In this document: piece after piece, positions 3,926 to 64,000 of the stretch | How positions within the stretch are numbered: the first letter of the stretch is position 1 | Layout of the letters: each line of letters opens with the position of its first letter | Assembly: GCF_000226255.1 (NCBI RefSeq) | Contig: NZ_AGFG01000060.1 | Coordinates: forward strand, 62,001-126,000 | Reading direction: 5' to 3' | DNA from: Desulfovibrio sp. A2 | GTDB lineage: Bacteria > Desulfobacterota > Desulfovibrionia > Desulfovibrionales > Desulfovibrionaceae | Length of the DNA: 64,000 bases | Notes under the pieces: model-generated | Seen by the model: the letters and a program-made list of their open reading frames with translations, nothing else | Databases searched by the model: none | What the model was told of the DNA's origin: nothing | Translations under genes and position numbers: made by a program

Positions 3926-4126
3926 TTGGTGAAACGCTGTTCCGGAGTAAAGACATCCTAGATGAATGCACTCCGATACGAAGAGGGGGGTGGTGCATGC
4001 CCTCCGGAACAGGAGCGTTCCATTTCCGACTAATGCGGTTGAATGCCGTGCGGGCATGGTGTAGGTGTACCGCAGTGGACGGCGCGCACTCTCGCGCGCC
4101 GCCGCAACGGGAGACCACGAAACGGC

Positions 4127-4603
4127 ATGAAGCTCACCGCCAGAACACGCTATGCGGCACGGGTGTTGGTTGCCCTTGCGGTGCATGGTACCGAGGGGCC
4201 GCTGACCACCACCACGTTGTCGCGACACACGGACATCAGCGTCCAGTTTCTGGAGCAGATACTCAAGGATCTGCGCCGTGCCGGGCTTACGGCCAGCGCG
4301 CGGGGCGCCATGGGCGGGCATCGCCTTGCCCTGCCGCCCGGCAAGATCACCCTGGGCGCGGTGGTGCGGCTCATGGAAGGGGGCATCCGCATCGCGGAGC
4401 ACTGCACCCTTGCCGATACGCCCGGCGACAAATTGACCTGCCTTGGCTGGACCCGCGCGGCCGATGCCGTGGAATCGGCCCTTGACGCCATTACCCTGGA
4501 CGACCTCGCCAAGGGTCTGCCCGACGCGACGGAACTCGACCCGCACCCTGACGGGGGCATGACGTCCGACATGGCCGACAGGTCAGGCAGGCCGGGCGTC
4601 TAG
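4127..4603 (+). CDS. Rrf2-family transcriptional regulator
   Basis: The 158-residue protein begins with the Rrf2-type winged helix-turn-helix (MKLTARTRYAARVLVAL, then QFLEQILKDLRRAGL and the wing GAMGGHRLAL). Rrf2 proteins are dimeric DNA-binding regulators, many of which sense redox state or nitric oxide through an Fe-S cluster. This one has only two cysteines in the usual cluster region (HCTLADTPGDKLTCLGW). A three-Cys IscR/NsrR-type cluster is therefore not obvious. ATG 4127 was chosen because family proteins start with MKLT or MRLT. An A/G-rich stretch (ACGGGAGA) lies about 14 bases upstream. Confidence 0.9.
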   Translation: MKLTARTRYAARVLVALAVHGTEGPLTTTTLSRHTDISVQFLEQILKDLRRAGLTASARGAMGGHRLALPPGKITLGAVVRLMEGGIRIAEHCTLADTPGDKLTCLGWTRAADAVESALDAITLDDLAKGLPDATELDPHPDGGMTSDMADRSGRPGV

Positions 4604-4943: not shown

Positions 4944-4958
4944 ATACCAATGCGGTAT
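4944..4958. promoter_or_regulatory. Palindromic operator ATACC-N5-GGTAT upstream of an Rrf2-type gene
   Basis: This is a perfect inverted repeat, ATACC AATGC GGTAT, about 150 bases upstream of the Rrf2-type start at 5106. It lies where a -35/-10 pair would fall (GTGTTG and TATGGT, 18 apart). The same palindrome class recurs as phased sites upstream of hmcA (63613-63652) and tmcD (19394-19458). Autoregulation of the adjacent gene is the likeliest reading, but that is inference. Confidence 0.6.
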
Positions 4959-5105: not shown

Positions 5106-5849
5106 ATGCGATTGCTGACCAACAGCCGCTACGGCACGCGGATGATGCTGGACATCGCCCAGCACAGCCGTCTGGGGCCGGTGCTGATGCGCGACGTGGC
5201 GCGTCGGCTGGATGTCTCGCAGAAGTATCTGGAAAAGATCAGCCGGTCGCTGAAAGAGGCGGGTCTGCTGGTGAGCCAGCGCGGGCCCAACGGCGGTCAC
5301 CGTCTGGGACGCTCGCCCGACGACATTTCCGTGGGCGACGTGGTGCGCGTGCTGGAAGGCGGGGCGGAAATGGTGGGTTGCGGCCGCGACGAGGAAAACT
5401 GCACCCATGCCCCCGGCTGCCTCACGCGCATGGTCTGGAAGGAATGCAGCAGGGCCATGTTCGCCCGGCTGGACGCCATTACCTTTGGTGAACTGTTGCG
5501 CTACGTGGATCAGGGGGTGAAGTTCGGCGATTGGTGCCCGGGCACCGTGGCCGAGCACCGCCAGGAGGCCGAACGGGAACTGCGCGCGCTGGCCGGGCTT
5601 GCGGAAGCATCCGGTTATGCGGAACCGGCGGGATTCCATGGGCCCGGAAAATCCGCGCCCGCCAGCGGCACGCCATCGGGTGGCTGCCCATCCCGCATGA
5701 TCCCCGCGCCGCCCCGCGTCCCGCCGCCCGTATCGGAACCGTGCGAACCGGAAGGCCCAGTGGGATTGGACGGACTGGACGGACGGGACGGGCCTGACGA
5801 TGCGGAAGGCATCGGCTCGCCGCGTACCCGCCCGGCCCGCGTGTCCTGA
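5106..5849 (+). CDS. Rrf2-family regulator with Fe-S cysteines and a long C-terminal tail
   Basis: The first 150 or so of 247 residues are a typical Rrf2 regulator. They comprise a winged helix (MRLLTNSRYGTRMMLDIA, YLEKISRSLKEAGL, GPNGGHRLG) and three clustered cysteines, C-x6-C-x5-C, in GCGRDEENCTHAPGCL, close to the spacing that binds [Fe-S] in IscR/NsrR. The remaining residues form a Pro/Gly/Asp-rich tail beyond the usual length of about 150. It includes a 9-bp tandem array that encodes a DGLDGRDG-like run. ATG 5106 is preceded by GAGGGGGCAGGGC. In-frame ATGs further upstream lack the family start. The haem-sensor kinase gene begins 53 bases downstream, so a shared operon is likely. Confidence 0.92.
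   Translation: MRLLTNSRYGTRMMLDIAQHSRLGPVLMRDVARRLDVSQKYLEKISRSLKEAGLLVSQRGPNGGHRLGRSPDDISVGDVVRVLEGGAEMVGCGRDEENCTHAPGCLTRMVWKECSRAMFARLDAITFGELLRYVDQGVKFGDWCPGTVAEHRQEAERELRALAGLAEASGYAEPAGFHGPGKSAPASGTPSGGCPSRMIPAPPRVPPPVSEPCEPEGPVGLDGLDGRDGPDDAEGIGSPRTRPARVS
5763..5798. repeat. 9-bp tandem array (4 units, GGACTGGAC-like)
   Basis: Four consecutive 9-bp units related to GGACTGGAC lie inside the C-terminal tail of the Rrf2-type gene and encode an Asp/Gly-rich stretch. Related arrays of 9-bp units occur at 12531-12584 and 23752-23778. Confidence 0.7.
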
Positions 5850-5902
5850 CCGTGGGCGGCCCGGTGTGTGGGGCGCGCGGGGCGGCGGCACGGGAGGTTG
5901 CC

Positions 5903-12584: not shown

Positions 12585-12671
12585 CCGGAAGTATGCGCGG
12601 TCGGTCTCCGTCCGCATGATGCGGAAGCCCGCCGTTCCGCAAGTCCGGGGGCATGCCCGCCGTGCGCAGGG

Positions 12672-14673: not shown

Positions 14674-14678
14674 GGCGT

Positions 14679-15245
14679 TTACCTCCGTAGGCTGCAGTGT
14701 CTGGCGCCGCCCTGGAAGCCGAGCTCCCATGCGAGGCCTTCGATGACTTCGAACAGGCTGAAGGTGGTCTCGCAATCGAGCACCCGCGTCCTGTCCCCGA
14801 ACACAACATGTCGCAGGCCGCCCAGCGAGAGCGGCAAATCCAGCAGGGCATCGAGCGGTATGAATCTGATTTCGTGTTCCGTTTCTCCGTCGCGGCCGCA
14901 GGGGCTGTTTGCCCCCGGCGCCAGCGCCCGCAGCGAAAGGTAGATTTCCGCGCGCGGGCCGCCGGGGTAGCCGATGAGGTCCACGGTCTTGCGCAGCGCA
15001 AGGCCGGTCAGCCCGTCCGCCCGGCAGCCTTCGCCGGGGCAGCGGGCCGCCTCTGCCACGGCGGCGGGCAGGAACGGTCCAAGGCGCTGCAGTTCGGCGT
15101 ACCGGGTCAGCAGGGCGAAAAACGAGCGCAGCGTGCAGCCCGCGTCCAGCACCGCCGCCAGGCGCAGGCAGGGCAGCGGGTCGGCGTGGGTGGTTCCGTC
15201 GGGGGCGCGAAGCGTTCCGTCGGGGGCAAGGTGCACGCTGTCCAT
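14679..15245 (-). CDS. Conserved hypothetical protein of the Tmc cluster
   Basis: This 188-residue protein has no motif I can assign to a family. It is soluble-looking, with no signal peptide, and has a few scattered cysteines (PLPCLRLAA, ARCPGEGCRADG, SPCGRDGE). It lies 5 bases before the Usp gene and follows tmcA on the same strand, so it is almost certainly co-transcribed with them. ATG 15245 (MDSVHLAPDG) has CGGAGAA upstream. A protein at this position is present beside tmcA in D. vulgaris as I recall. The function is unknown. Confidence 0.8.
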   Translation of the reverse strand: MDSVHLAPDGTLRAPDGTTHADPLPCLRLAAVLDAGCTLRSFFALLTRYAELQRLGPFLPAAVAEAARCPGEGCRADGLTGLALRKTVDLIGYPGGPRAEIYLSLRALAPGANSPCGRDGETEHEIRFIPLDALLDLPLSLGGLRHVVFGDRTRVLDCETTFSLFEVIEGLAWELGFQGGARHCSLRR

Positions 15246-15330: not shown

Positions 15331-15768
15331 TCAGGCCTTGGCGTGGCAGCCGCCGCACGCCGTGGGGCCTTTGGCCTGCTGCTTGTGGCAGCCCATGCAC
15401 TGGCGGTGGTAGGCCCGCTCCAGCGGCGTGCCCTTGCCCCTCGAGCCATTGTCGGCGGCGTGACAGTCGGCGCAGGGCGTGCCCTCGGAACTGGGGGCGG
15501 CCGGATCGCGCCGTCCGTCCTCGGTGGTGCCGTGGTGGCACACGCCGCAATCCTCGATCCTGGCCTTTTCGTTGTGCGTATCGTGGACGAAGCTGGCGGC
15601 GGGCCGTGAATGCGGGGCCAGCGCCTCGGGCGCGAGCGTGGTCATGTCTTCCTGGGCCGGGGCCGTTGCCACGGGCGGCAACAGCAGGAGCAGCAGCGCG
15701 GCCGCCAGGGTCGCCAGCAGGACCGCCATTTGGGCCGCAGCCACCGGCAGGGAACGTCGTGCCTTCAT
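15331..15768 (-). CDS. tmcA: TmcA, acidic tetrahaem cytochrome c3
   Basis: The 145-residue precursor starts with a basic N-terminus and a long hydrophobic leader (about residues 10-38) for Sec export. It has four haem c motifs: CGVCH, CADCH, CMGCH and CGGCH. The extra distal His ligands (VHDTHNEK, YHRQC) fit bis-His cytochrome c3. TmcA is the periplasmic subunit of the Tmc complex. It accepts electrons from hydrogenase-reduced type I cytochrome c3 and passes them to the membrane subunits. It lies directly after tmcB on the same strand, 22 bases apart. Confidence 0.93.
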   Translation of the reverse strand: MKARRSLPVAAAQMAVLLATLAAALLLLLLPPVATAPAQEDMTTLAPEALAPHSRPAASFVHDTHNEKARIEDCGVCHHGTTEDGRRDPAAPSSEGTPCADCHAADNGSRGKGTPLERAYHRQCMGCHKQQAKGPTACGGCHAKA

Positions 15769-15790: not shown

Positions 15791-17128
15791 CTACGCGGCG
15801 CCGGGCTTTTCCATGCAGTCGTAGATCAGGTCGCCCAGGAACTTGGTGTGCATGCCGAGCTTGTAGTGGTGGATGATGTCTTCGAGCCCGCCGTGGCAGT
15901 TGTGGCAGGGGGCCACCACCGTGTGCACGCCCGTGGCGGCCAGTTGATCGGCCTTGGCCTTGTTGCCCGCCAGGCGCACGCCCTTGAAGGGCGGGCCGCA
16001 GTTGATCACCCCGCCGCCCGCGCAGCAGCACAGGTTGTGTTCGCGCGTGGGGGACATCTCCACCACGTTGGAACACAGGGCGTGGGTGACCTCGCGCAGC
16101 TTGTCCATCAGGCCGCGCCCCCGGATGATGTTGCACGGGTCGTGGATGGTCACCGGTTCGTCGAACTTCCTGGCCAGCTTTATCTTGCCCTCGGTCAGCA
16201 GTTCCCAGAAGAACTCCACCGAATGCACGATGGGCACGGGGTGGAACTTCCAGCCCAGCCAGCGGTTGCCCACGTCGTACACCGAGCGGAAGGCGTGGCC
16301 GCACTCTCCCATGACGATGCGCTTGACCTTCAGCTTCTGGGCCATCTCGAAGTGGCAGCGCTTGAGCCGCCCCATCATTTCATAGTCGCCGGTGAACATG
16401 CACATGTCGCTGTTGTCCCAGCCGGGGGAGGAAGGCATGGTCCAGTCCACCCCGGCCTGGTCGAAGATCACCGCCGCCTGGTAGATGAGCTGGGTGCGGA
16501 ACTTGGGCTCGGGCGCGATGACCGAGTACAGGAAGTCCGCCCCTTCCTTGTCGAAGGGGATGCGCAGCGAGGGAATCTCGCCGCGCGCTTCGTCTTCCTG
16601 CCACACCAGGCTGTCGATCCATTCGTCGTCCTTGACCCACATCTGGTTCATGGTGCCGGAATGGCTGTGCGCCGTATCCTGGATGTACAGGGGCACCACG
16701 CCCAAGCGATGGCAGATGCGGCGCACCATGCTCATGACGTAGCCGGTGTCGATGCCCACGGGACAGTAGTGCACGCAGCGGCGGCACAGGTTGCATTCAG
16801 TGTAGGCGATCTGGGCCATGCCGTAGATGTCGTCCGGATCCACCTTGCCGCCGGTGCGCAGCAGCTTCCACATGGTCTGTTCCATCTTGCCCACGGGGGA
16901 ATAGGTGGGGTCGCCGCCGTGCGAGAGGCAGTAGTGGCAGGCGTCGGCGCACATGCCGCAGCGCATGCAGGTTTCGTGGTACACGGCAAGGCGCGCCCCG
17001 GCCTCGCCCTTGGTCACGGCCTTGACCACGCGTTCGATGCGTTCACGCGTCAGCGCGGCCACGCCCCGGATGAGGTTGGCGTCTTCTATGCGGCGTTCCG
17101 CGATGCCCGAAAATTCCGTTGCGCTCAT
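15791..17128 (-). CDS. tmcB: TmcB, cytoplasmic iron-sulfur protein with CCG domains (HdrD-like)
   Basis: The 445-residue protein has two ferredoxin-type 4Fe-4S motifs near the N-terminus (CMRCGMCADACHYC and CNLCRRCVHYCPVG). Two Cys-rich CCG-type regions follow, ending in HNLCCCAGGG and APCHNCHGG. This resembles the heterodisulfide-reductase subunit HdrD. It lacks a signal peptide and should sit on the cytoplasmic face of the Tmc complex, taking electrons from TmcC. It is paralogous to HmcF at 57040-58431. ATG 17128 has GGGAGACAACC upstream. Confidence 0.93.
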   Translation of the reverse strand: MSATEFSGIAERRIEDANLIRGVAALTRERIERVVKAVTKGEAGARLAVYHETCMRCGMCADACHYCLSHGGDPTYSPVGKMEQTMWKLLRTGGKVDPDDIYGMAQIAYTECNLCRRCVHYCPVGIDTGYVMSMVRRICHRLGVVPLYIQDTAHSHSGTMNQMWVKDDEWIDSLVWQEDEARGEIPSLRIPFDKEGADFLYSVIAPEPKFRTQLIYQAAVIFDQAGVDWTMPSSPGWDNSDMCMFTGDYEMMGRLKRCHFEMAQKLKVKRIVMGECGHAFRSVYDVGNRWLGWKFHPVPIVHSVEFFWELLTEGKIKLARKFDEPVTIHDPCNIIRGRGLMDKLREVTHALCSNVVEMSPTREHNLCCCAGGGVINCGPPFKGVRLAGNKAKADQLAATGVHTVVAPCHNCHGGLEDIIHHYKLGMHTKFLGDLIYDCMEKPGAA

Positions 17129-17218: not shown

Positions 17219-17878
17219 CTACCAGTCGGGGCAGTGGCGCACCCCGCCGAATTCCGAGCCCATGTAGGCCCGGGTGAAGGGCGAGAACAGCGCATGCGAC
17301 AAGCGGGTGAAGGGCAGCGCCATCAGCGTGGCCTCGCCCGAGAGCACGTGCAGGGTGCTCATCAGCAGGTTGTCGCCGATCTGCTGCTTGGCGAGAAACG
17401 CGGTGGCGACCGGCACGGCCACCAGCGCCAGCACCAGCCAATCCATGGGCCGGGTGACGTAGCGGACCGTGGGCAATTGCAGCCTTCTCCATGCGAAGAA
17501 CCCGCACAGCAGGATGACCAGCACGGTCAGCACGTCGGCGATGCCTTCGGGCAGGGACCAGACGTTGACGCCGAAGGCGTAGTCCCACAGCACCGCATGC
17601 CCCGGCGCGAAAAGCAGCAGCAGGACGAGGGCGGTGTGGAAGGAGAAGGTGGCCACGGTGACGGCGGGGTTGGCCCGCCAGCCCAGGGTGGCGAAGGGGG
17701 TGGCCCAGCGCGCCATGGAGCGCGCGGCGAAGCGGACGTCCATGTAGGCCACGGCGTTCATGTCCTTCTTGCGGGCCAGCGCCCACATGGAGGCGATGCG
17801 CCAGGCAGACCCGCCCAGAAACACGGCCCAGGCGACCCAGGCCAGGGGGCCGACGGCGAAGTTGTAAAGTTGTTGCAT
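17219..17878 (-). CDS. tmcC: TmcC, membrane cytochrome b-type subunit
   Basis: The 219-residue protein has five or six hydrophobic helices (for example GPLAWVAWAVFLGGS, TALVLLLLFAP, VLTVLVILLCGFF and LVLALVAVPVATAFL). Histidines in FSFHTAL and STLHVLSGE are candidate haem b ligands, as in NarI-like subunits. It links periplasmic TmcA to cytoplasmic TmcB across the membrane and is paralogous to HmcE. I chose ATG 17878 (MQQLYNF) because GGGGAGG is eight bases upstream. The in-frame GTG at 17887 would have no spacer. Confidence 0.92.
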   Translation of the reverse strand: MQQLYNFAVGPLAWVAWAVFLGGSAWRIASMWALARKKDMNAVAYMDVRFAARSMARWATPFATLGWRANPAVTVATFSFHTALVLLLLFAPGHAVLWDYAFGVNVWSLPEGIADVLTVLVILLCGFFAWRRLQLPTVRYVTRPMDWLVLALVAVPVATAFLAKQQIGDNLLMSTLHVLSGEATLMALPFTRLSHALFSPFTRAYMGSEFGGVRHCPDW

Positions 17879-17904
17879 GGCTGTCACCTCCCCTGATCAG
17901 GTGA

Positions 17905-19242
17905 TCAGGCCTTGAAGTCGTCAATGGTGGCCACCCACCGCTCGCACGCGCCGTCGCGCACGCCGCGCAGCAGCACCGCGCCGCCTGGTCCGAAGGTCGG
18001 GTCCCATGCCGTGGTGAACGCGTCACGCCAGGGCTTGCCGTCCACCAGCACCGTTTCGCGGGCCCGATCCCGCACGCGCACCGCCACGTGTTGCCCGCAC
18101 GGGCTGAACACGGGCCGCCAGGCCATTTCCCACCGGCCGGGCCAGGGCACGCCGTCCACCACCACCTGCCAGTCGCTGTTGTCGTTGCTGACAAGGGCCG
18201 CGGCACGCGTGCCGTCGGACGAGAGGACAAGATCGGTGACCACGGGGGCGGTGAAAGACCACGGCGCGGCGTCGCGGGCCACGGTGAACCGTCCGTACTG
18301 CGGGGCCACGATGGCCCACAGGTGCCGTCCGTCCCGGCTCCATGCGGGCGACCAGCACTGGAAGAAGCGGGCGTCCCACAGCAGGGTGCCGTCCAGCGCC
18401 ATGCCCCAGCGGCCCTCCTTGCGCACGGGCGCGGCCACGGCCCCGGTGGCCGGGTCGAAGCAGGGCTCCCACACGCAGGGGAAGGTGGCTGGCCACGGCG
18501 CGCCGTTGACGGCCACGGTGTACTCGGCGTGGGAAAGGCGCACCTGCGCGGCCACCCGGTCGTTGCGGTTGTCGAACACGGGCGTCCAGACGTTCATGAA
18601 ATTCTGTTCCCATGCCTCGCCGTCCACGGCCACGCTGTACACGCCCCGCATGAAGGTCTCTATGTCTGCCTGGCCCAGCGGCACGGTCTGCACCACGGCG
18701 GCGGTGCGGCGGCCGTCGGGGCTCAACGCGAAGTTGTTGGCGTTCTCGTACAGCGTTTCCCAGACTTCGCCGTCCATGATCATGCCGTAGCGCGTGTCCT
18801 GCTGCACGGCGGCGGCCAGCCGCCCGGCGGGGCCGGAGCACAGCGACCATATGAACCCGTAGGTTTCCGGCCATGCCTCGCCGTCCACGGCCACGGTCCA
18901 TTCCCCGTCCTGCTGCACGATGGCCGCCAGGCGTCCGTCAGCCAGGAAGCGCGGCGACCACACCTTGTCGAAGCTGGCATCCCAGACGCCGTCGTCCACC
19001 CGCATGGTGAAGCTGTCGTCCTCCTGCCGGACCACGGCGGCCACGTGCATGCCGTCGGGCGACATGTGCGGTTCTTCCTGCCACTGGTGGCCGGGCAGCG
19101 GCGCAAGGGAAGGCGCGATCACCCGTCTGCCCGGTTCCCAGTCGCCGGGGGTGGAATGCGGTGGGGCTGCTGCGGCGTTCGCGGCAAACGGCGTTTCCGG
19201 CAGACCGGAAGGGGCTAGCCGGGTGGCTGCGGAAGTGGACAT
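17905..19242 (-). CDS. tmcD: TmcD, tryptophan-rich repeat protein
   Basis: The 445-residue soluble protein is built from about eight repeats of 45-50 residues, each ending near a VDGxxW element (VDGEAWPETYGFIW, MDGEVWETLYEN, VDGEAWEQNFMNVW, VNGAPWPATFPCVW, VDGVPWPGRWEMAW, VDGKPWRDAFTTAW). The pattern suggests a beta-propeller with one W-rich blade motif per repeat. No signal peptide is visible. TmcD of D. vulgaris is known as the tryptophan-rich cytoplasmic subunit of unknown role. It is the first gene of the operon, behind three phased operator-like sites. ATG 19242 has AGGAGGT upstream. Confidence 0.9.
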   Translation of the reverse strand: MSTSAATRLAPSGLPETPFAANAAAAPPHSTPGDWEPGRRVIAPSLAPLPGHQWQEEPHMSPDGMHVAAVVRQEDDSFTMRVDDGVWDASFDKVWSPRFLADGRLAAIVQQDGEWTVAVDGEAWPETYGFIWSLCSGPAGRLAAAVQQDTRYGMIMDGEVWETLYENANNFALSPDGRRTAAVVQTVPLGQADIETFMRGVYSVAVDGEAWEQNFMNVWTPVFDNRNDRVAAQVRLSHAEYTVAVNGAPWPATFPCVWEPCFDPATGAVAAPVRKEGRWGMALDGTLLWDARFFQCWSPAWSRDGRHLWAIVAPQYGRFTVARDAAPWSFTAPVVTDLVLSSDGTRAAALVSNDNSDWQVVVDGVPWPGRWEMAWRPVFSPCGQHVAVRVRDRARETVLVDGKPWRDAFTTAWDPTFGPGGAVLLRGVRDGACERWVATIDDFKA

Positions 19243-19390: not shown

Positions 19391-19421
19391 AGTATACTCG
19401 TGCGGTAGAATTGATTGTCTA
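19391..19421 (-). promoter_or_regulatory. Candidate tmc promoter
   Basis: On the minus strand TAGACA (19421-19416) and TATACT (19396-19391) form a -35/-10 pair with a 19-base spacer. They lie about 150 bases upstream of tmcD in AT-rich DNA. Two of the CTACC-type palindromes overlap these hexamers, as expected for repression. Confidence 0.45.
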
Positions 19422-19458
19422 CCGTAGTGGTGTAGTATTAATGCTACCGCGAAGGTAG
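19394..19458. promoter_or_regulatory. Three phased palindromic operators upstream of tmcD (25-bp period)
   Basis: Sites at 19394 (ATACT CGTGC GGTAG), 19419 (CTACC GTAGT GGTGT) and 19444 (CTACC GCGAA GGTAG) share the form YTACC-N5-GGTAG. They start exactly 25 bases apart. The same motif and spacing occur at 63613/63638 before hmcA. Binding by an Rrf2-family protein is inferred, not shown. Confidence 0.65.
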
Positions 19459-19675
19459 AAAATTCATGATGCAACAGATGTATCTTATTGAAGCAAGATT
19501 GCACTAAAGGGAGAGTGGCTGGTGCCGTGTGTCATGGTGGGGCGGTGTGTTTCGTGCGTGTTGCGGTATCGAAACAATGCCGAAGGGCATCACGCCCGTC
19601 GGCATGAGCAGGGAGGGACAGCAGGGCGGAAGGGGGCGGTGTAGAGCCGGGAAAAATCCAATATGATATTGACTA

Positions 19676-19690
19676 TGAAAATCGTTTTCA
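19676..19690. promoter_or_regulatory. Fur-box-like site upstream of the porin gene
   Basis: TGAAAAT-C-GTTTTCA is a 7-1-7 inverted repeat with one mismatch. It closely matches the TGAAAATnATTTTCA form of Fur box described for Desulfovibrio. It lies 114-128 bases before the porin start, next to AT-rich promoter-like DNA. Confidence 0.6.
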
Positions 19691-19803
19691 GTATTCGACA
19701 CGGAAACGTCCGCCGCCCCCTGCGCGGCGCGACGCAGCACGGGACCGCGGGGCGCACTGCCGCCTGGTCCGCATACTTTCCCGCAAGGAAGGAAGGAGAA
19801 CAC

Positions 19804-21219
19804 ATGAAACGTCTGATCACGCTGCTGCTGGGCGCGGCACTGTTGTGCGGCGCTGCTTCCCCGGCCGCAGCCGCGACCATCGAAGCCAAGGGCGAGTGGG
19901 CCTTCGACTTTTCGTGGGCCGATGGCATGAACTACCGCTCCGCCGATGACGGCGGCGAAAGCGAAGACGACTTCGCGGCCCACCAGCGACTGCGCACCCA
20001 GATCGACATCGTCGCCAGCGAAGCGCTGCGCGGCGTGGTGTTCCTGGAAATGGGCACCACCACCTGGGGCCAGGAAGACGGCGCGCTGGGCACGGACGGC
20101 AAGTCGGTGAAGGTGCGCCGGTCGTACATCGATTGGGTGGTGCCCAATACCGAACTGCAGGTGCGCATGGGCCTGCAGGGCATGGACCTGCCCGGCGCGA
20201 CCTTTGGCGCCAGCCCGATCCTGAGCGACGAGGACGTGGCCGCCCTGGTGCTGAGCTACGCCGTCAGCGAGAACCTGGGCCTTACCGCCTTCTGGGCGCG
20301 CCCGTATGACACCTCGGCCGGGGAATCGTCCGGCGACAACTCGTTCGACGAAGTGGACGTGTTCGGCCTGACCGCCCCGGTGACCCTGGACGGCGTCAGC
20401 GTGACGCCGTACCTGGTCTACGCCTCGGTGGGCAAGGACGCGGACGGCAGCGGCGCCACCTACAACACCGATTCGTTCGACACCTTCACCGACGGCATGC
20501 AGAGCCTTGGCCAGCGCATGGGCCTGACCGGCGACGACACCACCGCCAATGACGCGTGGTGGGGCGGCGTGGCCCTGGAACTGTCCATGTTCGACCCGTT
20601 CACTGTGAAGATGGACGCCACCTACGGCCGCAAGGACGCCGACGAGGACTATGCCACCCGCGAAGGCTGGCTGGTTTCGGCCATGGTGGAATACAAGATG
20701 GAAGCCGCCACCCCCGGCGTGTTCGTCTGGTACGGCAGCGGTGAAGACGACGACATCGACAACGGCTCCGAACGCATGCCGTCCATCTCGCCCAACGCCT
20801 GGGCGCCCACCAGCTTCGGCTTCCCTGGTTCGGCGTTCAACCAGGACAGCCAGTTCGCCCTCAACGGCGCGGGCCTGTGGGCCGTCGGCGTGCAGGTGGC
20901 GGACATCTCGTTCGTCGAGAACCTGTCGCACCTCGTGCGCGTCACCTACATGCGCGGCACCAACGATTCCGAACTGGTCAAGGACACCGCCGGCCTCTCC
21001 GACGAACTGGCCCCGGCCAGCGGCGGCGTGTTCCTGACCGACGAGGACAGCGCCTGGGAAGTGAACGTCGACCACACCTACCAGATCTACGAAAACCTCG
21101 CCCTCATCGTGGAGATGGGCTACATCCGCCTCGACCTGGACGAAGATGTCTGGGGTGCCGCGGGCGAAGACCTGACCGCCGCCAAGAAGCTGACCTTCAA
21201 CCTGGTGTACGAGTTCTAG
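19804..21219 (+). CDS. Outer-membrane porin of the Desulfovibrio type
   Basis: The 471-residue precursor has a Sec signal peptide (MKRLITLLLGAALLCGAA, cleavage near residues 22-24 after AAA). The rest is an acidic, Gly/Asp-rich sequence of alternating amphipathic strands ending in an aromatic residue (LTFNLVYEF), the signature of an outer-membrane beta-barrel. It resembles the abundant homotrimeric porins of Desulfovibrio. ATG 19804 follows GGAAGGAGAACAC. The upstream Fur-box-like site suggests iron-dependent expression, and a strong hairpin terminator follows. Substrate specificity cannot be told from sequence. Confidence 0.9.
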   Translation: MKRLITLLLGAALLCGAASPAAAATIEAKGEWAFDFSWADGMNYRSADDGGESEDDFAAHQRLRTQIDIVASEALRGVVFLEMGTTTWGQEDGALGTDGKSVKVRRSYIDWVVPNTELQVRMGLQGMDLPGATFGASPILSDEDVAALVLSYAVSENLGLTAFWARPYDTSAGESSGDNSFDEVDVFGLTAPVTLDGVSVTPYLVYASVGKDADGSGATYNTDSFDTFTDGMQSLGQRMGLTGDDTTANDAWWGGVALELSMFDPFTVKMDATYGRKDADEDYATREGWLVSAMVEYKMEAATPGVFVWYGSGEDDDIDNGSERMPSISPNAWAPTSFGFPGSAFNQDSQFALNGAGLWAVGVQVADISFVENLSHLVRVTYMRGTNDSELVKDTAGLSDELAPASGGVFLTDEDSAWEVNVDHTYQIYENLALIVEMGYIRLDLDEDVWGAAGEDLTAAKKLTFNLVYEF

Positions 21220-55870: not shown

Positions 55871-56323
55871 TCAGTCCTGGGCGTGGGGCGAGATGTGGCA
55901 GGCGTTCTTGGGGCACAGGCTGGCGTCGCGCATCAGGTCGGCCAGGGTGAAACTGTTGAGCTTCTTGTACATGGCGCGCGAGGCCTCGTCCCAGATGGTG
56001 CGCGTCAGGCACACGGCCATGCGCGGGCAGCAGGGGTTTTCCTCGTCGCAGGTGTAGGGGGCCAGCGATTCTTCCAGCGCGAACACCACGTCGCCCACGG
56101 GAATTTCCGCGGCGGGCTGGGTAAGCTGGTAGCCGCCGTGCGCGCCCAGCGTGCTGCGGATGTAGCCAGCCTTGCGCAGTACCCGGATGAGTTTTTCCAG
56201 GTACTTGACGGAAATACCCTGGCGCTTGGCGATATCGCGGATGGACACGGGGGCTTCCGTGCCGTGCATGGCGATGTCGAGCAGCATGCGGGTGCCGTAT
56301 CGGCTGCGGGTGGTCAGTTTCAT
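55871..56323 (-). CDS. rrf2: Rrf2, regulator of the hmc operon (founding Rrf2-family type)
   Basis: The 150-residue protein has the Rrf2 winged helix (MKLTTRSRYGTRMLLDIA, ISVKYLEKLIRVLRKAGYI and GAHGGYQL). Its cysteine cluster is CDEENPCCPRMAVC (C-x6-CC-x5-C), suited to an Fe-S cofactor, with two more Cys near the C-terminus (LCPKNACHI). As I recall, loss of rrf1/rrf2 in D. vulgaris raises hmc expression. Palindromes of IscR-like size lie upstream of hmcA. ATG 56323 has no strong ribosome binding site. The upstream spacer is an 11-bp tandem array. Confidence 0.93.
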   Translation of the reverse strand: MKLTTRSRYGTRMLLDIAMHGTEAPVSIRDIAKRQGISVKYLEKLIRVLRKAGYIRSTLGAHGGYQLTQPAAEIPVGDVVFALEESLAPYTCDEENPCCPRMAVCLTRTIWDEASRAMYKKLNSFTLADLMRDASLCPKNACHISPHAQD

Positions 56324-56438: not shown

Positions 56439-56840
56439 CTATTCGCCCAGCGCCCGCCGCACGATGCCCAGCATCAGGTCCGGGTCGAACGGCTTGTCCA
56501 CGGTGCCCACGGCGTTGGGCACCATCAGGTGCAGGCCGCCAAGGCCGGTCACCAGCACCACGGGTATGTGCGCGCCGCCGGGCAGGTCCATCAGTTCGCG
56601 GTACACGCGGGGGCCCCACTGGCGGGGCATTTCCAGGTCCAGGGTCACCAGGTCGGGCCGCCGGGCCCGGGCCATTTCCACGGCGTCGGGGCCTTCGGTG
56701 GCCGCGTCGGCCCGGTAGCCGTTGGTCCTGAACAGCGAGACGAGGTAGGCGGCGATGTCCGGGTCGTCCTCTACCACCAGGATGGACTTAGCCAGAGTGT
56801 TCCGGGCCGGGGTGTTCCGGTCCTGGGTGGCGTTGGCCAT
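56439..56840 (-). CDS. rrf1: Rrf1, single-domain response regulator of the hmc operon
   Basis: The 133-residue protein is a receiver (VVEDDPDIAAYL, phospho-acceptor in LVTLDLEMPRQWGPRVYREL, VTGLGG, Lys in VDKPFDPDLMLGIVRRAL) with a short N-terminal extension. It has no DNA-binding domain. It closely resembles the second receiver of the Tmc cluster. ATG 56840 has GGAG upstream. It lies between hmcF and rrf2, the arrangement known in D. vulgaris, and a hairpin separates it from hmcF. Confidence 0.92.
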   Translation of the reverse strand: MANATQDRNTPARNTLAKSILVVEDDPDIAAYLVSLFRTNGYRADAATEGPDAVEMARARRPDLVTLDLEMPRQWGPRVYRELMDLPGGAHIPVVLVTGLGGLHLMVPNAVGTVDKPFDPDLMLGIVRRALGE

Positions 56841-56989
56841 GCGTCGCTCCGGGCCTCCGTTTGCGGGCCGGGCCGGGGCCGCCGGTTCCACCTTGCGAGC
56901 GGAAGGGGCGGCGGTCCGGCGGGCCGGGCGGGGGGCGGCTCTCCCCGCCAGGCGGCCGTGAACATGCGGCCTTGGGCCGTCGCGTGGGG

Positions 56990-57026
56990 GCGCGGGCCTT
57001 GCCATGTTGTCGTGCAAGGCCCGCGC
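56990..57026 (-). terminator. Strong hairpin between hmcF and rrf1
   Basis: GCGCGGGCCTTGC pairs perfectly over 13 bp with GCAAGGCCCGCGC, loop of 11. No T-run follows. It may attenuate transcription into rrf1-rrf2 or protect the hmc mRNA 3' end. Confidence 0.6.
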
Positions 57027-57039
57027 TCCCCGGCGCGCT

Positions 57040-58431
57040 CTATTCGTCCTCTTCCTGCGGCTTCAGGTGCTCGGGCACGATGACCATGCTGATGAGCAGC
57101 GGCTTCAGGAACGACCAGCGGATGCCGATCTCGTATTCTTCTTCCAGGTCGCGGATGGCGTCCCAGCAGTTGTGGCAGGGCGCCACCACAAGCTTGCAGC
57201 CGGTGGCCAGGATCTGGTCGCGCTTGGTCTTCAGGGCCACGTTGCGCTGGTGCCGGTAACGGCCGATGCCGTTGAACCCGCCCCCACCGCCGCAGCAGTA
57301 GTTGTGTTCTCGGTTGGGAGCCATTTCGTGGAAGTCTTCCGCGATGTAACTCATGATGATGCGGGTGTGCTTGGCAAGGCCGTGGTTGCGCACGTAGTTG
57401 CAGGAATCCTGCAAGGTCACGGGTTCCTTGATGCGCTTTTCCGGGTCGATCTTCAGCTTGCCGGTGGTCAGCGCCTCGGACACCCATTCCACGTAGTGCA
57501 GGAAGGGCACCGGGGTCCGGCCGTCGGCACGGCCTGCCCAGTAGGGACCCTCGATGACCGTGGCGCGGTGGGCGTGGCCGCATTCGGTGCCGACGACGCG
57601 CTTGGGCCGCAGCTTGTCCACGGCGGCGTAAACGCGCTCCACCTGCATCTTGCAACCCGCCCAGTCGCCGGCGAACATGGTCAGCGAGGTCTGCTCCCAG
57701 CCTTCGCTGGGCACGGTCCAGTTCTCGCCCGCCAGGTGGAACAGGATGGCGGCCTCGGCCAGGTCTTCGGGGTAGTGCTTGGGCTCGCGGGCGTTCAGCA
57801 CGTACATGGTGTCCGCGTCTTCCTTGTCGACGGGGATCTCAAGGCCCGGCCATTCTTCCTGCTGTTCCTCGGCCATCCATTCGCAGGTTTCCACCCAGTC
57901 TTCGGTGGTCACGTCCATCTGCGCCCCGTACACGCGGTGCATGCCGGAGCCGATCTTCAGTTCCCACGGCACGAAGCCCTGGGAGAAGAGCAGGCCGCGC
58001 AGGTAGCTGAACATGACGCCCATGTCGATGCCGTGGGGGCAGTACATGCCGCAGCGGTTGCAGCAGGTGCACTGCGACCAGGCCACCTCCATGGTGCGCA
58101 TCATGAACGCGGTGTCCACCTCGCCCTTCTTGCGCACGATTTCGCCGAGGGTGGACTGGATCTTGTAGGCGGGCACCTGCTTGGGGTCGCGCTCGTTGAC
58201 CCGGTACAGGAAGCAGCTGTCGGCGCACATGCCGCAGTGGGCGCAGATTTCCAGCCACGTCTTGGTGCGCGACTGCAAGGTTTTCTGCAGGGTGGCCTTA
58301 AGGGCCTCCACGTCAACCTCAAGCTCCGCCATTTCCTTGTAGTATTGCGCTCCGCCCTTGTCGCCGAGCAGGGCCTTGAGGTCCTCTTCGGTGTTGACGG
58401 GGCGTCTGTTGCAGAACGTTCCTTCAGGCAT
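57040..58431 (-). CDS. hmcF: HmcF, cytoplasmic iron-sulfur protein with CCG domains (HdrD-like)
   Basis: The 463-residue protein has two ferredoxin-like motifs ([14 protein letters not shown] and [14 protein letters not shown]). Two CCG regions follow ([17 protein letters not shown], and YCCGGGGG with [10 protein letters not shown]). It forms the cytoplasmic end of the Hmc complex, exchanging electrons with soluble partners. It is paralogous to TmcB. The start [10 protein letters not shown] at 58431 has GGAGCATCCC upstream. Confidence 0.95.
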
Positions 58432-58489: not shown

Positions 58490-59170
58490 CTACCAGGGGA
58501 AGGCCGCCCCGCGGCTGTACCCGCCGCGCTTGATGGCATAGTCCATGCCTATCTGGCCGCGCGACATGAAGAACAGCACGATGTGGGACAGCTTGGTGAA
58601 CGGGGCCACGATGAGCATCAGCTCGCCCGTGATGATGTGGGCGAGCAGCCACGCCTCGTAGTTGCCCACGTGCAGCCGGGCCACGAACCCGGTGACGAAC
58701 GGCGCCGCCGAAACGGCGAGGATGAACCAGTCGTAGGCGGTGGTGAGGATGCGCACCTCGGTCAGGGCGATGCGCCGCAGCGCGATCATGACCAGGCCGA
58801 TGATGGCGGCGACGGTCAGCGCGTCGGCGATGCCCATGGGCAGCGCAGGCAGGCTGAAGCCGAACCGCTCGGCCAGGATGATGTTGTGCCCGGCGAGGAA
58901 CAGCGGCACCAGCACCGCGCCGATGTGGAACAGGAAGAACGCCACGGCGAAGTAAGGCTGTTCGCGCCAGCTCTGGGTGCCGAACGGCAGCATCCACTTC
59001 AGGGCGGAATGGATGCCGCCCTTCAGGCCGTGGGCAAGGTGCGGGCCGTAGGCCACGCGGTCGAGCTGCCAGCTCAGGCCGCGCACGTACCAGACCACGC
59101 GCGCCGTGAGGCCGCCGAAGAAGACCAGCAGCGCCACCCACAGCATGGGACCGGTGAGGAATGCGTACAT
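58490..59170 (-). CDS. hmcE: HmcE, membrane cytochrome b-like subunit
   Basis: The 226-residue protein has about five transmembrane helices (GPMLWVALLVFFGGLTARVV, FAVAFFLFHIGAVLVPLFL, ALTVAAIIGLVMIAL). Histidines FLFHIGA and LAHIITGEL are candidate haem b ligands, as in NarI. It parallels TmcC in position next to the CCG protein gene. GGAGCATACC lies upstream of ATG 59170, and hmcD is 17 bases upstream. Confidence 0.93.
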   Translation of the reverse strand: MYAFLTGPMLWVALLVFFGGLTARVVWYVRGLSWQLDRVAYGPHLAHGLKGGIHSALKWMLPFGTQSWREQPYFAVAFFLFHIGAVLVPLFLAGHNIILAERFGFSLPALPMGIADALTVAAIIGLVMIALRRIALTEVRILTTAYDWFILAVSAAPFVTGFVARLHVGNYEAWLLAHIITGELMLIVAPFTKLSHIVLFFMSRGQIGMDYAIKRGGYSRGAAFPW

Positions 59171-59343: not shown

Positions 59344-60510
59344 TTAGTGGGCGTCCTTGTATTCGGGATGCTCGTACAGCACCGGCATGCGCGTGGCGAT
59401 GAACCGGTAGACCGTGATGATGAGCGTCACGATGAACACCGAAACGCCGATCTCCATCCAGTGCGGGAAGTAGCGGTCGGCGGCGGGCAGATTCCAGTTG
59501 AAGGCGATGAGCGAGACGTTGAAGCGGTTCACCACGATGCCGAGCACCGCGAAGATGGACGCCACGCGCACCAGCGTCATGTTTCTTTCGCGCACGCCAA
59601 GGGCGTACAGGAACGAGGGCAGCGCCACGAAGCCGAACATCTCGACCAGGAACCACGCCCCGTATCCGGTGGCGAGGTAGGCCCAGTCGTTGTCCATGGC
59701 GATGTCCATGGTCTTGATGAAGAAATACCCGGCAAGCACGAACGAGGCCGCCTTGCCGAAGCCGAAGACCACGCCCTCGGCTTCCTTCAGGTGGGTTTCG
59801 TCCATCTTGTGGTGCAGCCCGGCGTGGGCCAGGGTGCCCTCGAAGATGACCATCGAAAGGCCCGCCACCATGGACGAGATGAAGAAGAACACCGGCAGGA
59901 AGCTGGAGTACCACAGGGGGTGCAGCTTGCCCGGGGCGATGAGGAACAGCGCGCCCAGCGAGGACTGGTGCAGGGTGGACAGCACCACGCCGAAGATGGT
60001 CAGCATAAGGGTGAGCTTGACCACCACGTTGCGGATCTTGCGCAGGCCCAGCCACTCCAGCGCCGCCGGGGACCATTCCACGAACAGCACGGTGAGGTAG
60101 GTGGCCACGCACAGGCCCACTTCGAACAACAGCGAGGTGGTGCCCTGCGAGTACACCAGCGGGTAGGGCAGGCGCAGCGGATGCCCCAGGTCGTAATGCA
60201 GCGCCACGACCACGAAGAAGTAGCCGAGGAACGCCGTGGTGATGGCCGGGCGCACCGCCGAGTGGTAGCGCTTCATCCCGAACAGGTAGCATGAGGCCGA
60301 GGTGACGTAGCCGCCAGCGGCCAGAGCCACGCCGCACAAGAGGTCGAACCCGATCCAGATGCCCCACGGGTTGTTGTCCGACAGGTTGGTGACGGCCCCG
60401 ATGCCCTGGGTGAAGCGGATGAAGGTGATCACCGCGCCCACGGCAAGGATGATGGCCGTTATGATGTTGCCGGGCGTGAACAGGCCGTTTTTGGTGTTCG
60501 CGTCGTGCAT
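59344..60510 (-). CDS. hmcC: HmcC, NrfD/DsrP-type integral membrane subunit
   Basis: The 388-residue protein has about ten transmembrane helices (for example IITAIILAVGAVITFIRF, LLCGVALAAGGYVTSAS and FFFISSMVAGLSMVIF). It belongs to the NrfD/PsrC family, which exchanges electrons with quinones or partner haem and Fe-S subunits. It works with the ferredoxin HmcB, encoded directly upstream with one base between the genes. I chose ATG 60510 because AGGAGG lies upstream. Open frame before it lies inside hmcB. Confidence 0.95.
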   Translation of the reverse strand: MHDANTKNGLFTPGNIITAIILAVGAVITFIRFTQGIGAVTNLSDNNPWGIWIGFDLLCGVALAAGGYVTSASCYLFGMKRYHSAVRPAITTAFLGYFFVVVALHYDLGHPLRLPYPLVYSQGTTSLLFEVGLCVATYLTVLFVEWSPAALEWLGLRKIRNVVVKLTLMLTIFGVVLSTLHQSSLGALFLIAPGKLHPLWYSSFLPVFFFISSMVAGLSMVIFEGTLAHAGLHHKMDETHLKEAEGVVFGFGKAASFVLAGYFFIKTMDIAMDNDWAYLATGYGAWFLVEMFGFVALPSFLYALGVRERNMTLVRVASIFAVLGIVVNRFNVSLIAFNWNLPAADRYFPHWMEIGVSVFIVTLIITVYRFIATRMPVLYEHPEYKDAH

Positions 60511-60511
60511 G

Positions 60512-61630
60512 TTATGCGTCCTCCTTGCCTTCGCCGCCGGCATCGGGCGGGGTGTCCTGCCCTTCGGCGCGCAGCGCGGCGAACTTCTCTTCGAACGCCT
60601 GCTCGGCCTGCTCGATGGCCTTCTTGACCTCGCGGGTCACGGCGGCGTCCTTTTCCTTGGCCGCCTTGGCCAGCGCCGAGTTCATGGCGGTTTCGGCATC
60701 GGCCTTGGCCTTGGCCAGCGCGGCCTGGACGGCCTCTTCGCGTTCTTCGGCCGCAACCTTTTCCTTGCGCTTGGAGATGGCGTAGGCCCCGGTCAGCAGC
60801 ACCGGCCAGATGCCCACCACCATGGGCACGGAGCCAAGGGCCCCGGCCGTGTATTCCGGCGCGGACTTGGTGCCCATCTCCTGCTGGCCCACGGCCTCGA
60901 ACGGCGCGCCGGACACGTACATCCACGCCGTGCCGCCCATTTCCAGTTCACCGTAGATGTGATCCTGGTAGCGGCCGGGGTTTGAGCGGATGCGGTCGCG
61001 CGCGATGCGCACGAGGTCCTCGCGCTTGCCGAAGGTCAGGGCCTCCTTGGGGCAGGCCTCGACACAGCCGGGCAGCTTGCCTTCCTGCAGGCGCGGGTGA
61101 CACATGGTGCACTTCTGGATCAGCGGGTCGAAGGGCTCGTCGTACTGGAAGGCGGGCACGTTGAACGGGCACGCCACCATGCAGTACCGGCAGCCCACGC
61201 ACAGGCTGCCGTCGTAGGTGACGGAGCCGTCGGGGTTCTTGGTGAACGCCTTGACGAAGCAGGCCGAGGCGCAGGCGGGTTCCAGGCAGTGGTTGCACTG
61301 CTGCTTGCGGAACACCGGGTGCTCCAGCCCCGCCACGTTGTACTTGTTGACCACCGTCCAGTTGTTCGCGTCGGTGCGGCGCGACTTTTCAAGCACCGTC
61401 AGGTCGTCGAACTTCACCTTGGGCGCGGGCAGCTTGTTCACCTCGTTGCAGCCCTGCTCGCACTTCCGGCAGCCGATGCAGCGGGTGGTGTCGTGCAGCA
61501 CCCCGTAACTGTCCTTGTAGCCCTTGAAGCTCTGGTTGCCCGCCGCGACGGCCTGTTTCGCGCCTACAGCGCTCATGGCCGTGGAAACACCGGCGGTGCC
61601 CAGCAGGGTCAGGAATCTTCTCCTGTTCAT
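60512..61630 (-). CDS. hmcB: HmcB, periplasmic 4Fe-4S ferredoxin-type subunit with C-terminal membrane anchor
   Basis: The 372-residue protein starts with a twin-arginine-like signal ([15 protein letters not shown]). It has four 4Fe-4S motif groups ([37 protein letters not shown] and CTMCHPRL with [12 protein letters not shown]). A hydrophobic helix ([15 protein letters not shown]) follows, then an Ala/Lys/Glu-rich coiled-coil tail of about 90 residues. HmcB links the haem subunit HmcA to HmcC. AAGGAG precedes ATG 61630. Confidence 0.94.
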
Positions 61631-61651: not shown

Positions 61652-63313
61652 CTATTTCGCGCGTTCCTTGTGACACTCGGCGCAGGCCGTGGCGGCGGGC
61701 TTCTCGATCTTCATCCGATCGTGGCAGCCCATGCACTGCTGGTGGTAGGCAGCCTTCAGGCCGGGGCGGTCGCCCTTGGCGGCGTCGAAGGGCTTGCCGT
61801 GGCAGCTGGCGCACTTGGGGGGCGTCTTGCTGAGGGGGCTGTTGTGATGGCAGCCCGCGCAGACGGTGGCCTTGTCGGTGTGGAACGTGGCGGCCAGCTT
61901 GTCGTCGCCGATGCCCGCCATCAGGGTGTTCACGATCTTGCGGTGCGGCAGCTTGGAGGCTTCGTACTTGTCGGACAGCACGCCGATGGTCACGAACTCG
62001 GGGATGTCGTCGGCGGGCAGGGTGCCCTTGGTGGTGCGGCGGGCGGCCAGGGTGGCGGCGGCCACTTCGGCGCGCTGCTCCTTGGTGGCCTTCAGCAGGC
62101 CGCCGTCGGCCACGGCCTTGGCGTCCATACCCACCGGATCGGCGTGGCACACCGCACAGGCGGTTTCGGACTGGGGCTTGGCCCCGGTCTTCATGAAGCC
62201 GTGGCAACCAGCGCACACCGGGGTTTCCACCCGGTTGTTGTGGCAGCCCACGCAGCTCTTCATGGAGTCGGGCTGGTGCATGGCCTTCTCGACCTGCACG
62301 AAGCTGCCGTCCTTCACGCCTTCCAGCGTGTGGCAGGTGGTGCAGTTGTCGATCTTCACGTGGTGGCAGGCGCGGCAGGTGTTGCTGGCCGCTTCGTGCA
62401 CCTTGTGGTTGAAGGCCACGGGCTTCATGGTGCCCTTCATGCCCTTGGGCGCGTTCTTGCCCACCTCGGGCAGGACCATGGCGGCGTCGGCCTGGCCGCG
62501 TTCCAGGCGGGGCACGTCGCGCACCACCTTGAACTTGGCCTGCATGGCCGGGTCATGGCAGCCGGCGCAGGAGACGGGGCCGCTGTCGGCCTTGGCCGGG
62601 GCGGCGGCCACGCTGCGGTGGCAGGTCACGCACTGGGTGTGCGCGGCCTCGCGCAGCGAGGGCTTCTTCTCCACGCGCGCGTCGCCGTGGCAGGCGCGGC
62701 AGGAGTCTTCCTTGTTCTTGCCCCACGAAAGCTTCTTGGCGGCTTCGTCGTACACGTGGTGGCACGCGCCGCAGTTCTTCTGCGGGTCGTTCACGGGCGC
62801 GATGGCCTTGGAGGCCACGTGCCGGTAGTGCAGCGACTTGTCGAGGCCGATTTCCTTCCACGAGGAGGCAACCGGCTTCGGGTTGTGGCACGAGCGGCAT
62901 TCGCCGTCCTGCGGGCCGGTCTTCTTGCCCGCCTTGGCCTGCTCGGTGTGACAGCCGATACAGTTCTCGTGGTAGATCTTCTTGAGGTCGGCGGCGGAGG
63001 TGTCCTCAAGGCGCATGAACCTGAGCGACATCTTGCCCTTGTCGTCGTTCTTGTGGCAGGTGGCGCATTCCTTGCCGGGCGCGGCGACCTTGACCACGGC
63101 TTCGGTGTGTCGATCGTGCGGGAAGGTGACCTTCGGCAATTCCAGATCGCCGAATTTCGCCATGACGCCGATCTCCACCAGGTCGGCGCGCTGCTCGCCC
63201 GTGGAGCCGGGAAGGGGCTTCGTCGTGCCCCGCGCATCCAGCCCGAAAACCGTGACCGCGGCCACGGCGACCAGAGCTCCCGCCCATCGCAGCAGTGATT
63301 TCGCGTTCATCAT
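61652..63313 (-). CDS. hmcA: HmcA, high-molecular-weight cytochrome c with sixteen haems
   Basis: The 553-residue precursor has a Sec signal (MMNAKSLLRWAGALVAVAAV). I count exactly sixteen CxxCH haem motifs, from CATCH near residue 85 to CAECH at the C-terminus, with many adjacent or distal His ligands (for example CGACHHVYD, CRACHHVK). HmcA takes electrons from periplasmic cytochrome c3 or hydrogenase and feeds the transmembrane Hmc complex. AAGGA precedes ATG 63313. It is the first gene of the operon. Two phased palindromes lie about 300 bases upstream. Confidence 0.97.
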   Translation of the reverse strand: MMNAKSLLRWAGALVAVAAVTVFGLDARGTTKPLPGSTGEQRADLVEIGVMAKFGDLELPKVTFPHDRHTEAVVKVAAPGKECATCHKNDDKGKMSLRFMRLEDTSAADLKKIYHENCIGCHTEQAKAGKKTGPQDGECRSCHNPKPVASSWKEIGLDKSLHYRHVASKAIAPVNDPQKNCGACHHVYDEAAKKLSWGKNKEDSCRACHGDARVEKKPSLREAAHTQCVTCHRSVAAAPAKADSGPVSCAGCHDPAMQAKFKVVRDVPRLERGQADAAMVLPEVGKNAPKGMKGTMKPVAFNHKVHEAASNTCRACHHVKIDNCTTCHTLEGVKDGSFVQVEKAMHQPDSMKSCVGCHNNRVETPVCAGCHGFMKTGAKPQSETACAVCHADPVGMDAKAVADGGLLKATKEQRAEVAAATLAARRTTKGTLPADDIPEFVTIGVLSDKYEASKLPHRKIVNTLMAGIGDDKLAATFHTDKATVCAGCHHNSPLSKTPPKCASCHGKPFDAAKGDRPGLKAAYHQQCMGCHDRMKIEKPAATACAECHKERAK

Positions 63314-63612: not shown

Positions 63613-63652
63613 CTACCTCTAGGGTATGGAATAATTCCTACCGGAGGGGTAT
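63613..63652. promoter_or_regulatory. Two phased palindromic operators upstream of hmcA (25-bp period)
   Basis: CTACC TCTAG GGTAT (63613-63627) and CTACC GGAGG GGTAT (63638-63652) are exactly 25 bases apart. They match the three sites upstream of tmcD and the one upstream of the Rrf2-type gene at 5106. The surrounding DNA is AT-rich and contains promoter-like hexamers on the minus strand (TTGATT at 63663-63658). Confidence 0.65.
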
Positions 63653-63659
63653 GCGATAA

Positions 63660-64000
63660 TCAAGGGTGCGTCAAGCACATTCTGCGAAAAATCGAGGTTA
63701 CTCGATGGTGTCTGGGGTGTGTTGTTACATGTTGAAATAAAAACATAAAATTTGGTATGTGAGCGGTTGCAAACTGGCCTTTTTCAGTCCGGATTAAGGT
63801 GGTACGCGGGGTGGCGGCGGGGCGTCTTTCCGGGGTGCGCGAAAAAAGAGGCGGAGTGCGTCAAAACGGGCTCCGGATGGCCGGAAAAGGGGGTGCGCCT
63901 GCCGGGGATCGGGTGAAGGTGGTCAAAAACGGGGGCAAGGCCGTTCTGCAGGGGCCACGCCAGGCGCGGCCGGGCCGGCGTTGCGCGGTTGGCCCCAGTT
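63660..64000. other. Region upstream of the hmc operator, no gene recognised
   Basis: The part up to about 63770 is AT-rich, with runs such as AATAAAAACATAAAATTTGG that could include a more distal promoter. The remainder is GC-rich, with no convincing start, ribosome binding site or protein motif. A gene entering from beyond 64000 cannot be excluded. Confidence 0.4.

Follow-up and report, generated by a model that had tools for sequence, protein, structure and literature searches.

Introduction

According to PMC9338935, which cites the hmc deletion paper, the Rrf2 family of regulators was first described in Desulfovibrio vulgaris Hildenborough, and Rrf1 and Rrf2 are named as regulators of hmc expression in D. 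vulgaris in a legend of PMC10924467. For IscR, two reports (PMC6599224, PMC3899308) give GACT-N5-AGTC as the core of a 25-bp type-1 motif, which is N5-centred in E. coli; in P. aeruginosa, two contiguous 25-bp IscR sites (-67 to -43 and -42 to -18) lie over the iscR promoter, where they were footprinted and are repressive. In the IscR-DNA structure as summarized in PMC9338935, Glu43 contacts the C at -8, and contacts reach ±8 to ±10. RisR of Myxococcus xanthus, as described in PMC9973013, is an Rrf2-family repressor that recognizes the imperfect palindrome GAC-N7-GTC and gives a footprint of approximately 30 bp overlapping the -10 element. No description of an operator for the hmc Rrf2, or of a joint hmc-tmc regulon, was found in the open literature searched; as far as these searches show, the connection with tmc is new.

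Here we analyzed palindromes in a stretch of 64,000 nucleotides from Desulfovibrio sp. A2 (the window; C25:62001-126000 of the 4.15-Mb assembly that served for genome-wide scans). The HmcF protein of the window is 99% identical to those of N. liaohensis and N. oxamicus, and by this likeness the genome was assigned to the genus Nitratidesulfovibrio.

Results

The hmc operon lies on the minus strand and runs from position 63313 through hmcA (61652..63313; hexadecaheme cytochrome, NCBIfam NF045713), hmcB (60512-61630), hmcC (59344-60543), hmcE (58490-59170), and hmcF (57040-58431), the last four each identified by an NCBIfam equivalog, to rrf1 (56439..57017) and rrf2 (55871..56323). Before hmcA, an initial annotation had read CTACC-N5-GGTAT twice, and both copies were exact for the core TACC-N5-GGTA: candidate operator 1 (CTACC-GGAGG-GGTAT, 63638..63652) and candidate operator 2 (CTACC-TCTAG-GGTAT, 63613..63627), neither assigned to a strand, are 25 bp apart, and the hmcA start codon is located approximately 300-340 bp downstream of them. 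A predicted -35 element, TTGACG (63669..63674, minus strand), stands 17 bp upstream of the TACC of operator 1. On this predicted promoter, site 1 covers the -10 element and site 2, downstream of it, covers about +13 to +25, which is the geometry of a repressor, and the overlap with the core promoter is that of an Rrf2/IscR-type operator. The implied hmc leader is very roughly 110 to 450 nt long. TTGAC precedes the TACC of site 1 by 17 bp (20 loci) or 18 bp (4 loci) in 24 of the 26 hmc loci that carry a pair, L061 and L141 being the exceptions. Among 26 distinct TACC-type 25-mers, many of them from related species, a C was present at -8 in 20 and a G at +8 in 21, and these two positions had played no part in picking the sites. 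The resulting profile consists of half-sites at ±3 to ±6, C/G at ±8, A/T-rich positions at ±10 to ±12, and a variable 5-bp centre, a dyad contained within about 23-30 bp, as expected of an Rrf2/IscR-type operator.

The tmc genes, also on the minus strand, comprise tmcD (17905..19143; NCBIfam NF045725, with the start taken from the family model since the reading frame is open to 19242), tmcC (17219-17887), tmcB (15791-17128), and tmcA (15331-15768), the last three again NCBIfam equivalogs. The annotation of three YTACC-N5-GGTAG sites before tmcD was borne out in part: the site at 19444..19458 (CTACC-GCGAA-GGTAG) is exact and the spacing is 25 twice, but the sites at 19419..19433 (CTACC-GTAGT-GGTGT) and 19394..19408 (ATACT-CGTGC-GGTAG) each carry one core mismatch. 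These candidate operators occupy the intergenic region that separates tmcD from a divergently transcribed DESULF_POR1 porin gene (19663-21219). No convincing promoter was found for tmc; TAGACA-N19-TATACT was present in two of six. A further candidate operator, ATACC-AATGC-GGTAT (4944..4958), is exact and single, as had been annotated, and lies 162 bp before the start codon of a second rrf2 gene at 5106. Read in this way, two of the six palindromes claimed in the window have an imperfect half; none of the tmc or rrf2 sites was assigned to a strand. Every adjacent pair in the window is spaced by 25 bases, as the annotation had it, but across the 26 hmc loci with a pair the spacing was 25 (16 loci), 24 (7), or 26 (3). 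The annotation took this spacing to hold bound dimers at a constant helical angle; 25 bp correspond by arithmetic to approximately 2.4 turns, so that neighbouring sites do not share a helical face.

How often such sites arise by chance depended on whether they were counted singly or in pairs. In the window, YTACCN5GGTAK was matched four times (three places, one counted on both strands) versus 0.05 on average over 100 shuffles, and the bare core with one mismatch allowed was matched 13 times versus a mean of 5.9. Across the genome, the exact core TACC-N5-GGTA occurred at 11 places, compared with 8-17 (mean about 11) in ten simulated genomes, and the reversed pattern, a commoner word in these genomes, at 51. 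Single sites thus occur at random frequency, an outcome that the initial annotation had itself named as refuting; a lone site is not significant, and the genome-wide single count was not used as evidence. Pairs, however, exceeded the simulations: with at most one mismatch in 16 positions, 25-bp pairs were found at three places (hmc, tmc, and C65:73323) versus none in the ten simulated genomes, and with at most two mismatches at four places versus a mean of 0.1, confined to hmc, tmc, and that one further locus. The reversed pattern gave two 25-bp pairs in this genome at the two-mismatch cut. In eight genus genomes, spacing 25 yielded 28 places for TACC pairs (the tmc triple being counted twice) versus 6 for the reversed pattern, and the control spacing of 27 yielded 0 versus 22. 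Over the whole family, pairs with up to two mismatches were unspecific (51 of 199 genomes), and outside the genus the reversed pattern was about as common. Significance therefore belongs to the pairs together with their conservation.

The 25-bp phasing was retained in relatives, the hmc pair being present in all eight genus genomes. In 6/6 genus genomes with upstream DNA, tmcD was preceded by two or three sites that each have no more than one mismatch (three sites in four of these genomes); the contig ends there in two genus genomes, and L155, whose contig ends 50 bases before the gene, was left out. The site before the rrf2 gene at 5106 was exact, with its distance preserved within 1 bp, in 6/6 genus genomes that have an orthologue. 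At hmc and tmc, the N5 centres vary among genus genomes while the half-sites stay. Among the matches listed in the family search, six exact pairs lay outside the genus, all upstream of hmcA genes whose products are 45-56% identical to the HmcA of the window; judged from named HmcF loci, their genera appear to be Halodesulfovibrio and Pseudodesulfovibrio. In Halodesulfovibrio-type genomes, a single site with at most one mismatch preceded the tmc-linked rrf2 in 5/6. Operators before tmc itself were found in Nitratidesulfovibrio and, in weaker form, as single sites and one pair with two mismatches, in Halodesulfovibrio-type genomes only; within 450 bp upstream of tmcD in 18 tmc loci of other genera, the sole site with at most one mismatch was one in L214. 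In L115, L121, and L131, a conserved AACC-N5-GGTA palindrome stands before tmcD, just ahead of a GGAGG stretch at the start of the gene.

Other conserved sites were observed elsewhere in the genome. The pair at C65:73323 (L017:7324-7361), a third conserved 25-bp pair, lies about 257-295 bp before a Sel1-repeat gene and is kept in 7/8 genus genomes. Two more rrf2 genes were seen at L017:1583-4760, beside a selenoprotein-type sulfide:quinone reductase gene. A single TACC-N5-GGTA at C41:37099 (L020:3100-3112), before a Pyr_redox/rhodanese gene, falls in a block that is highly conserved and contains a hairpin-like repeat; it is kept in 6/6 matched genomes of the eight in the genus, exactly in four. 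Rfam gave no match at the C41 site and one tRNA in the window.

We then compared the presence of pairs with the position of rrf2 across hmc loci. Of 216 HmcF loci, the best 80, all named, were taken, and together with the window and seven further stretches they made up a sample of 88, of which 78 were kept; nine lacked a usable hmcA start or upstream region, and one (L065) had an upstream region identical to another. A pair was defined by at most four mismatches of 16 at a spacing of 24-26, and the downstream class by a same-strand rrf2 within 4.5 kb of hmcF. These thresholds were chosen after a first look at the data, in which a narrower cut (rrf2 within 3 kb, spacing 25, at most two mismatches, 700 bp) had given 12/30, 0/42, and 1/7. 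L068, whose stretch ends inside hmcF, was assigned by hand to the downstream class, the rrf2 then being seen in L197. A pair was present within 450 bp in 25/34 loci with rrf2 downstream, in 0/15 with rrf2 upstream only, in 0/21 with none, and in 0/8 undecided. Within 700 bp, the downstream count rose to 26/34 and that of the others to 1/44, through a locus without rrf2 (L143) whose four-mismatch pair lies 697 bp away and has no -35 element. The eight misses at 700 bp were L121, where the sites are visible with five mismatches, and seven loci of Humidesulfovibrio type, the majority of which retain, as judged by eye, TTGAC-N17 and a decayed pair or degenerate halves at the same place. On the HmcF tree, there were three contrasts on supported branches and six on all branches, with agreement in 2.6 on average, opposition in none, and a median p of 0.25; with so few independent contrasts, phylogeny alone is not decisive.

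The window encodes three Rrf2 proteins, two of them with Fe-S-type cysteines, just as annotated. All three carry the PF02082/TIGR00738 domain above cut-off. The hmc-linked protein (55871..56323) has the recognition helix S-V-K-Y-L-E-K and cysteines in the arrangement C-x5-C-C-x5-C; the tmc-linked protein (5106..5849, plus strand) has S-Q-K-Y-L-E-K and C-x6-C-x5-C. The three cysteines in the C-x5/6-C-x5-C region would allow both to hold an Fe-S cluster. Neither reached the cut-off of the IscR equivalog TIGR02010 in NCBIfam (115.8 and 93.2 bits, respectively, versus 207.55). The third protein (4043..4603, plus strand) lacks these cysteines, having few altogether, and with its different helix, S-V-Q-F-L-E-Q, is a poor candidate binder. 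Rrf1 was likewise rejected as a binder, since Pfam finds a receiver domain only and operons that have an Rrf1-like receiver but no downstream rrf2 have no pairs. Across loci, downstream and tmc-linked Rrf2 proteins share the helix S-x-K-Y-[LMI]-E-[KR], and Glu43 is kept in the Rrf2 proteins compared. In the Rrf2 tree, 18/19 upstream-type proteins formed one supported clade (the L082 protein fell outside) with the helix P-x-R-F-L-E-V, from which L113 and L139 depart slightly. The downstream proteins were not one clade on the best tree (five changes), and they may still have a single origin. The signature S-x-K-Y-L-E-K is an insufficient predictor, for it is shared by L082, L195, L196, L201, L202, and L206, which have no TACC pair in the stretches examined. 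The Pseudodesulfovibrio-type loci L195 and L196 each encode another Rrf2 that is nearer to the hmc-linked Rrf2 of the window (about 56%) than their own hmc-linked protein is (about 52%), with no TACC pair before it.

Beside tmc, the genes form a regulatory cassette. Genes for a universal stress protein (13756-14775), a double receiver of the DVU0259 family (12672-13586), and a sensor kinase (10282-12654) follow tmc on the minus strand, and this series is convergent with a unit consisting of rrf2 (5106), a sensor kinase (5852-8419), and a receiver-HATPase protein (8416-9663) on the plus strand, the latter two identified by domain search and synteny. In six Halodesulfovibrio-type genomes, tmc is again accompanied by the tmc-linked rrf2 and the cassette (stress protein, receivers, and kinases), and parts of the cassette adjoin tmc in further genera, among them L202 and L206, which have rrf2 there without a TACC site. 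In loci named Pseudodesulfovibrio (L114 and L122) and their relatives, a cassette of this kind, rrf2 included, follows hmcF. The Desulfomicrobium-type loci L115, L121, and L131 have tmc next to hmc, with cassette genes and rrf2 after the two, and in L135 an operator lies between divergent tmcD and hmcA. From the recurrence of the cassette and the presence of tmc operators in two genera, the coupling of hmc and tmc is well supported as a cassette and, at the level of the operator, in two genera; it is not a rule for the whole family.

Fourteen hmc operons, mostly from Desulfobacterales-type genomes, start with rrf2. IscR type-1-like sites, mostly in 25-bp tandem, were observed there in L084, L086, L104, L127, L138, L140, L147, and others. 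Within 250 bp before the first rrf2, GACT-N5-AGTC with at most one mismatch was present in 13/14 and TACC-N5-GGTA with one mismatch in 1/14; the GACT figures leave out L082, whose rrf2 lies on the opposite strand. GACT-type sites with at most two mismatches were 25 bp apart in 10/14 of these operons, and the distances between neighbouring sites were 25 (thirteen times) and 10, 24, 50, 81, 122, and 138 (once each). Exact GACT-N5-AGTC was the commonest dyad (9/14 loci), compared with 2-3 loci for the commonest dyad in 20 letter shuffles. With one mismatch, and in 480-bp stretches, it also occurred in 12/34 promoters with downstream rrf2 and in 1/21 without rrf2.

Discussion

The sites are best explained as tandem operators of Rrf2-family, IscR-like repressors, a reading to which we give a probability of roughly 0.8. 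The results support one conserved operator class common to hmc, tmc, and an rrf2 gene, and no other candidate for its binder comes close to an Rrf2-type regulator. The initial annotation had proposed a single common regulator. The shared operator class and the Rrf2 type of the candidate agree with it. One regulator may act on both operons or each may have its own, as separate rrf2 genes are linked to hmc (55871) and tmc (5106) and their products have the helix signature S-x-K-Y-L-E-K in common.

An unlinked transcription factor could bind the sites instead, with rrf2 linked simply through operon membership; one example would be a sigma-54 enhancer-binding protein, apparently encoded beyond hmc. 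Tandem N5-centred palindromes are known for other families too, and a gene near hmc (L019:8970-9968) resembles, by eye, that of an AAA+ activator. We regard this as unlikely, given that the sites overlap a TTGAC-N17 promoter-like element rather than lying 100 bp or more upstream, that hmc operons without downstream rrf2 have no TACC pairs, and that loci with another type of Rrf2 have another half-site. In the main text of the D. vulgaris sigma-54 regulome and response-regulator papers, moreover, the words hmc and tmc do not appear, and DVU0539, by position the likely orthologue of the AAA+ neighbour, is listed for lactate operons.

It is more doubtful still that the true dimer site is GGTA-N12-TACC, with its dyad between neighbours and TACC-N5-GGTA as just the gap. 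The same letters allow this, the IscR contacts out to ±8 to ±10 reported in PMC9338935 would accommodate it, and as a shared dyad it was found in 10/34 promoters, compared with 16/34 for TACC-N5. Yet the single TACC-N5-GGTA before the tmc-linked rrf2 is conserved (exact in 6/6 of the genus and within one mismatch in 5/6 Halodesulfovibrio-type genomes), neighbouring sites are 24 to 26 bp apart rather than at one fixed spacing, and the type-1 motif of E. coli IscR is N5-centred; N5 was built into our search pattern, so the N5 evidence is not fully independent. Least credible of all, and very improbable, is that the palindromes arose by chance or are maintained for some other purpose, leader RNA structure for instance. 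Single-site counts do equal chance, but the pairs exceed all ten simulations and recur in the same position in other genera, their halves are retained around changing N5 centres, and site 1, covering the predicted -10, would not be transcribed.

With tandem Rrf2 operators as the preferred reading, each TACC-N5-GGTA would be the core of one dimer site approximately 25 bp long, and such sites would lie head to tail on the promoter. The binders would be the hmc-linked Rrf2, its tmc-linked paralogue, or both. At tmc, three sites upstream of tmcD would serve, and the site in the likely promoter of the tmc-linked rrf2 suggests autoregulation. While its cluster is intact, Rrf2 would most probably obstruct RNA polymerase; hmc and tmc may then be released jointly by a signal from redox state, iron, or the cluster. 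With the half-site TACC in place of YYGACT, the element in the window is not an IscR type-1 site, although it would work like an Rrf2 operator. GACT-type sites are also in tandem at 25 bp, as in IscR type-1 operators, so the 25-bp period most simply reflects how long a single operator is. Head-to-tail tiling of such Rrf2 operators thus accounts better for the phasing, with a half-site that would differ with the type of Rrf2. We lean slightly towards a wider proposal, in which Hmc and Tmc, as transmembrane electron conduits working in parallel, form one regulon under a pair of Fe-S Rrf2 paralogues, the cassette moves between operons, and the 25-bp tandem geometry is kept across orders while half-site and helix change together.

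These sites provide a concrete, testable operator for the hmc Rrf2, the first described member of its family, and they link two electron conduits of sulfate respiration so far studied apart. They also form a natural series in which promoter architecture is constant and Rrf2 helix and half-site differ, useful for working out the recognition code of Fe-S regulators.

Among described systems, the operon is of the same kind as the hmc operon of Desulfovibrio vulgaris with its Rrf1/Rrf2. RisR of the delta-proteobacterium Myxococcus xanthus resembles our case as an Rrf2-family protein with an imperfect palindrome that overlaps the -10, and differs in its half-site, in one protected region per promoter, and in its isc and suf targets. 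With the IscR type-1 operators of E. coli and P. aeruginosa, the sites share an N5-centred dyad within a 25-bp operator and a tandem arrangement over the promoter. Unlike the half-site YYGACT..AGTCRR, whose GACT core was found only in the Rrf2-first hmc operons, the half-site in the window is TACC..GGTA, and its targets are transmembrane redox complexes rather than isc genes.
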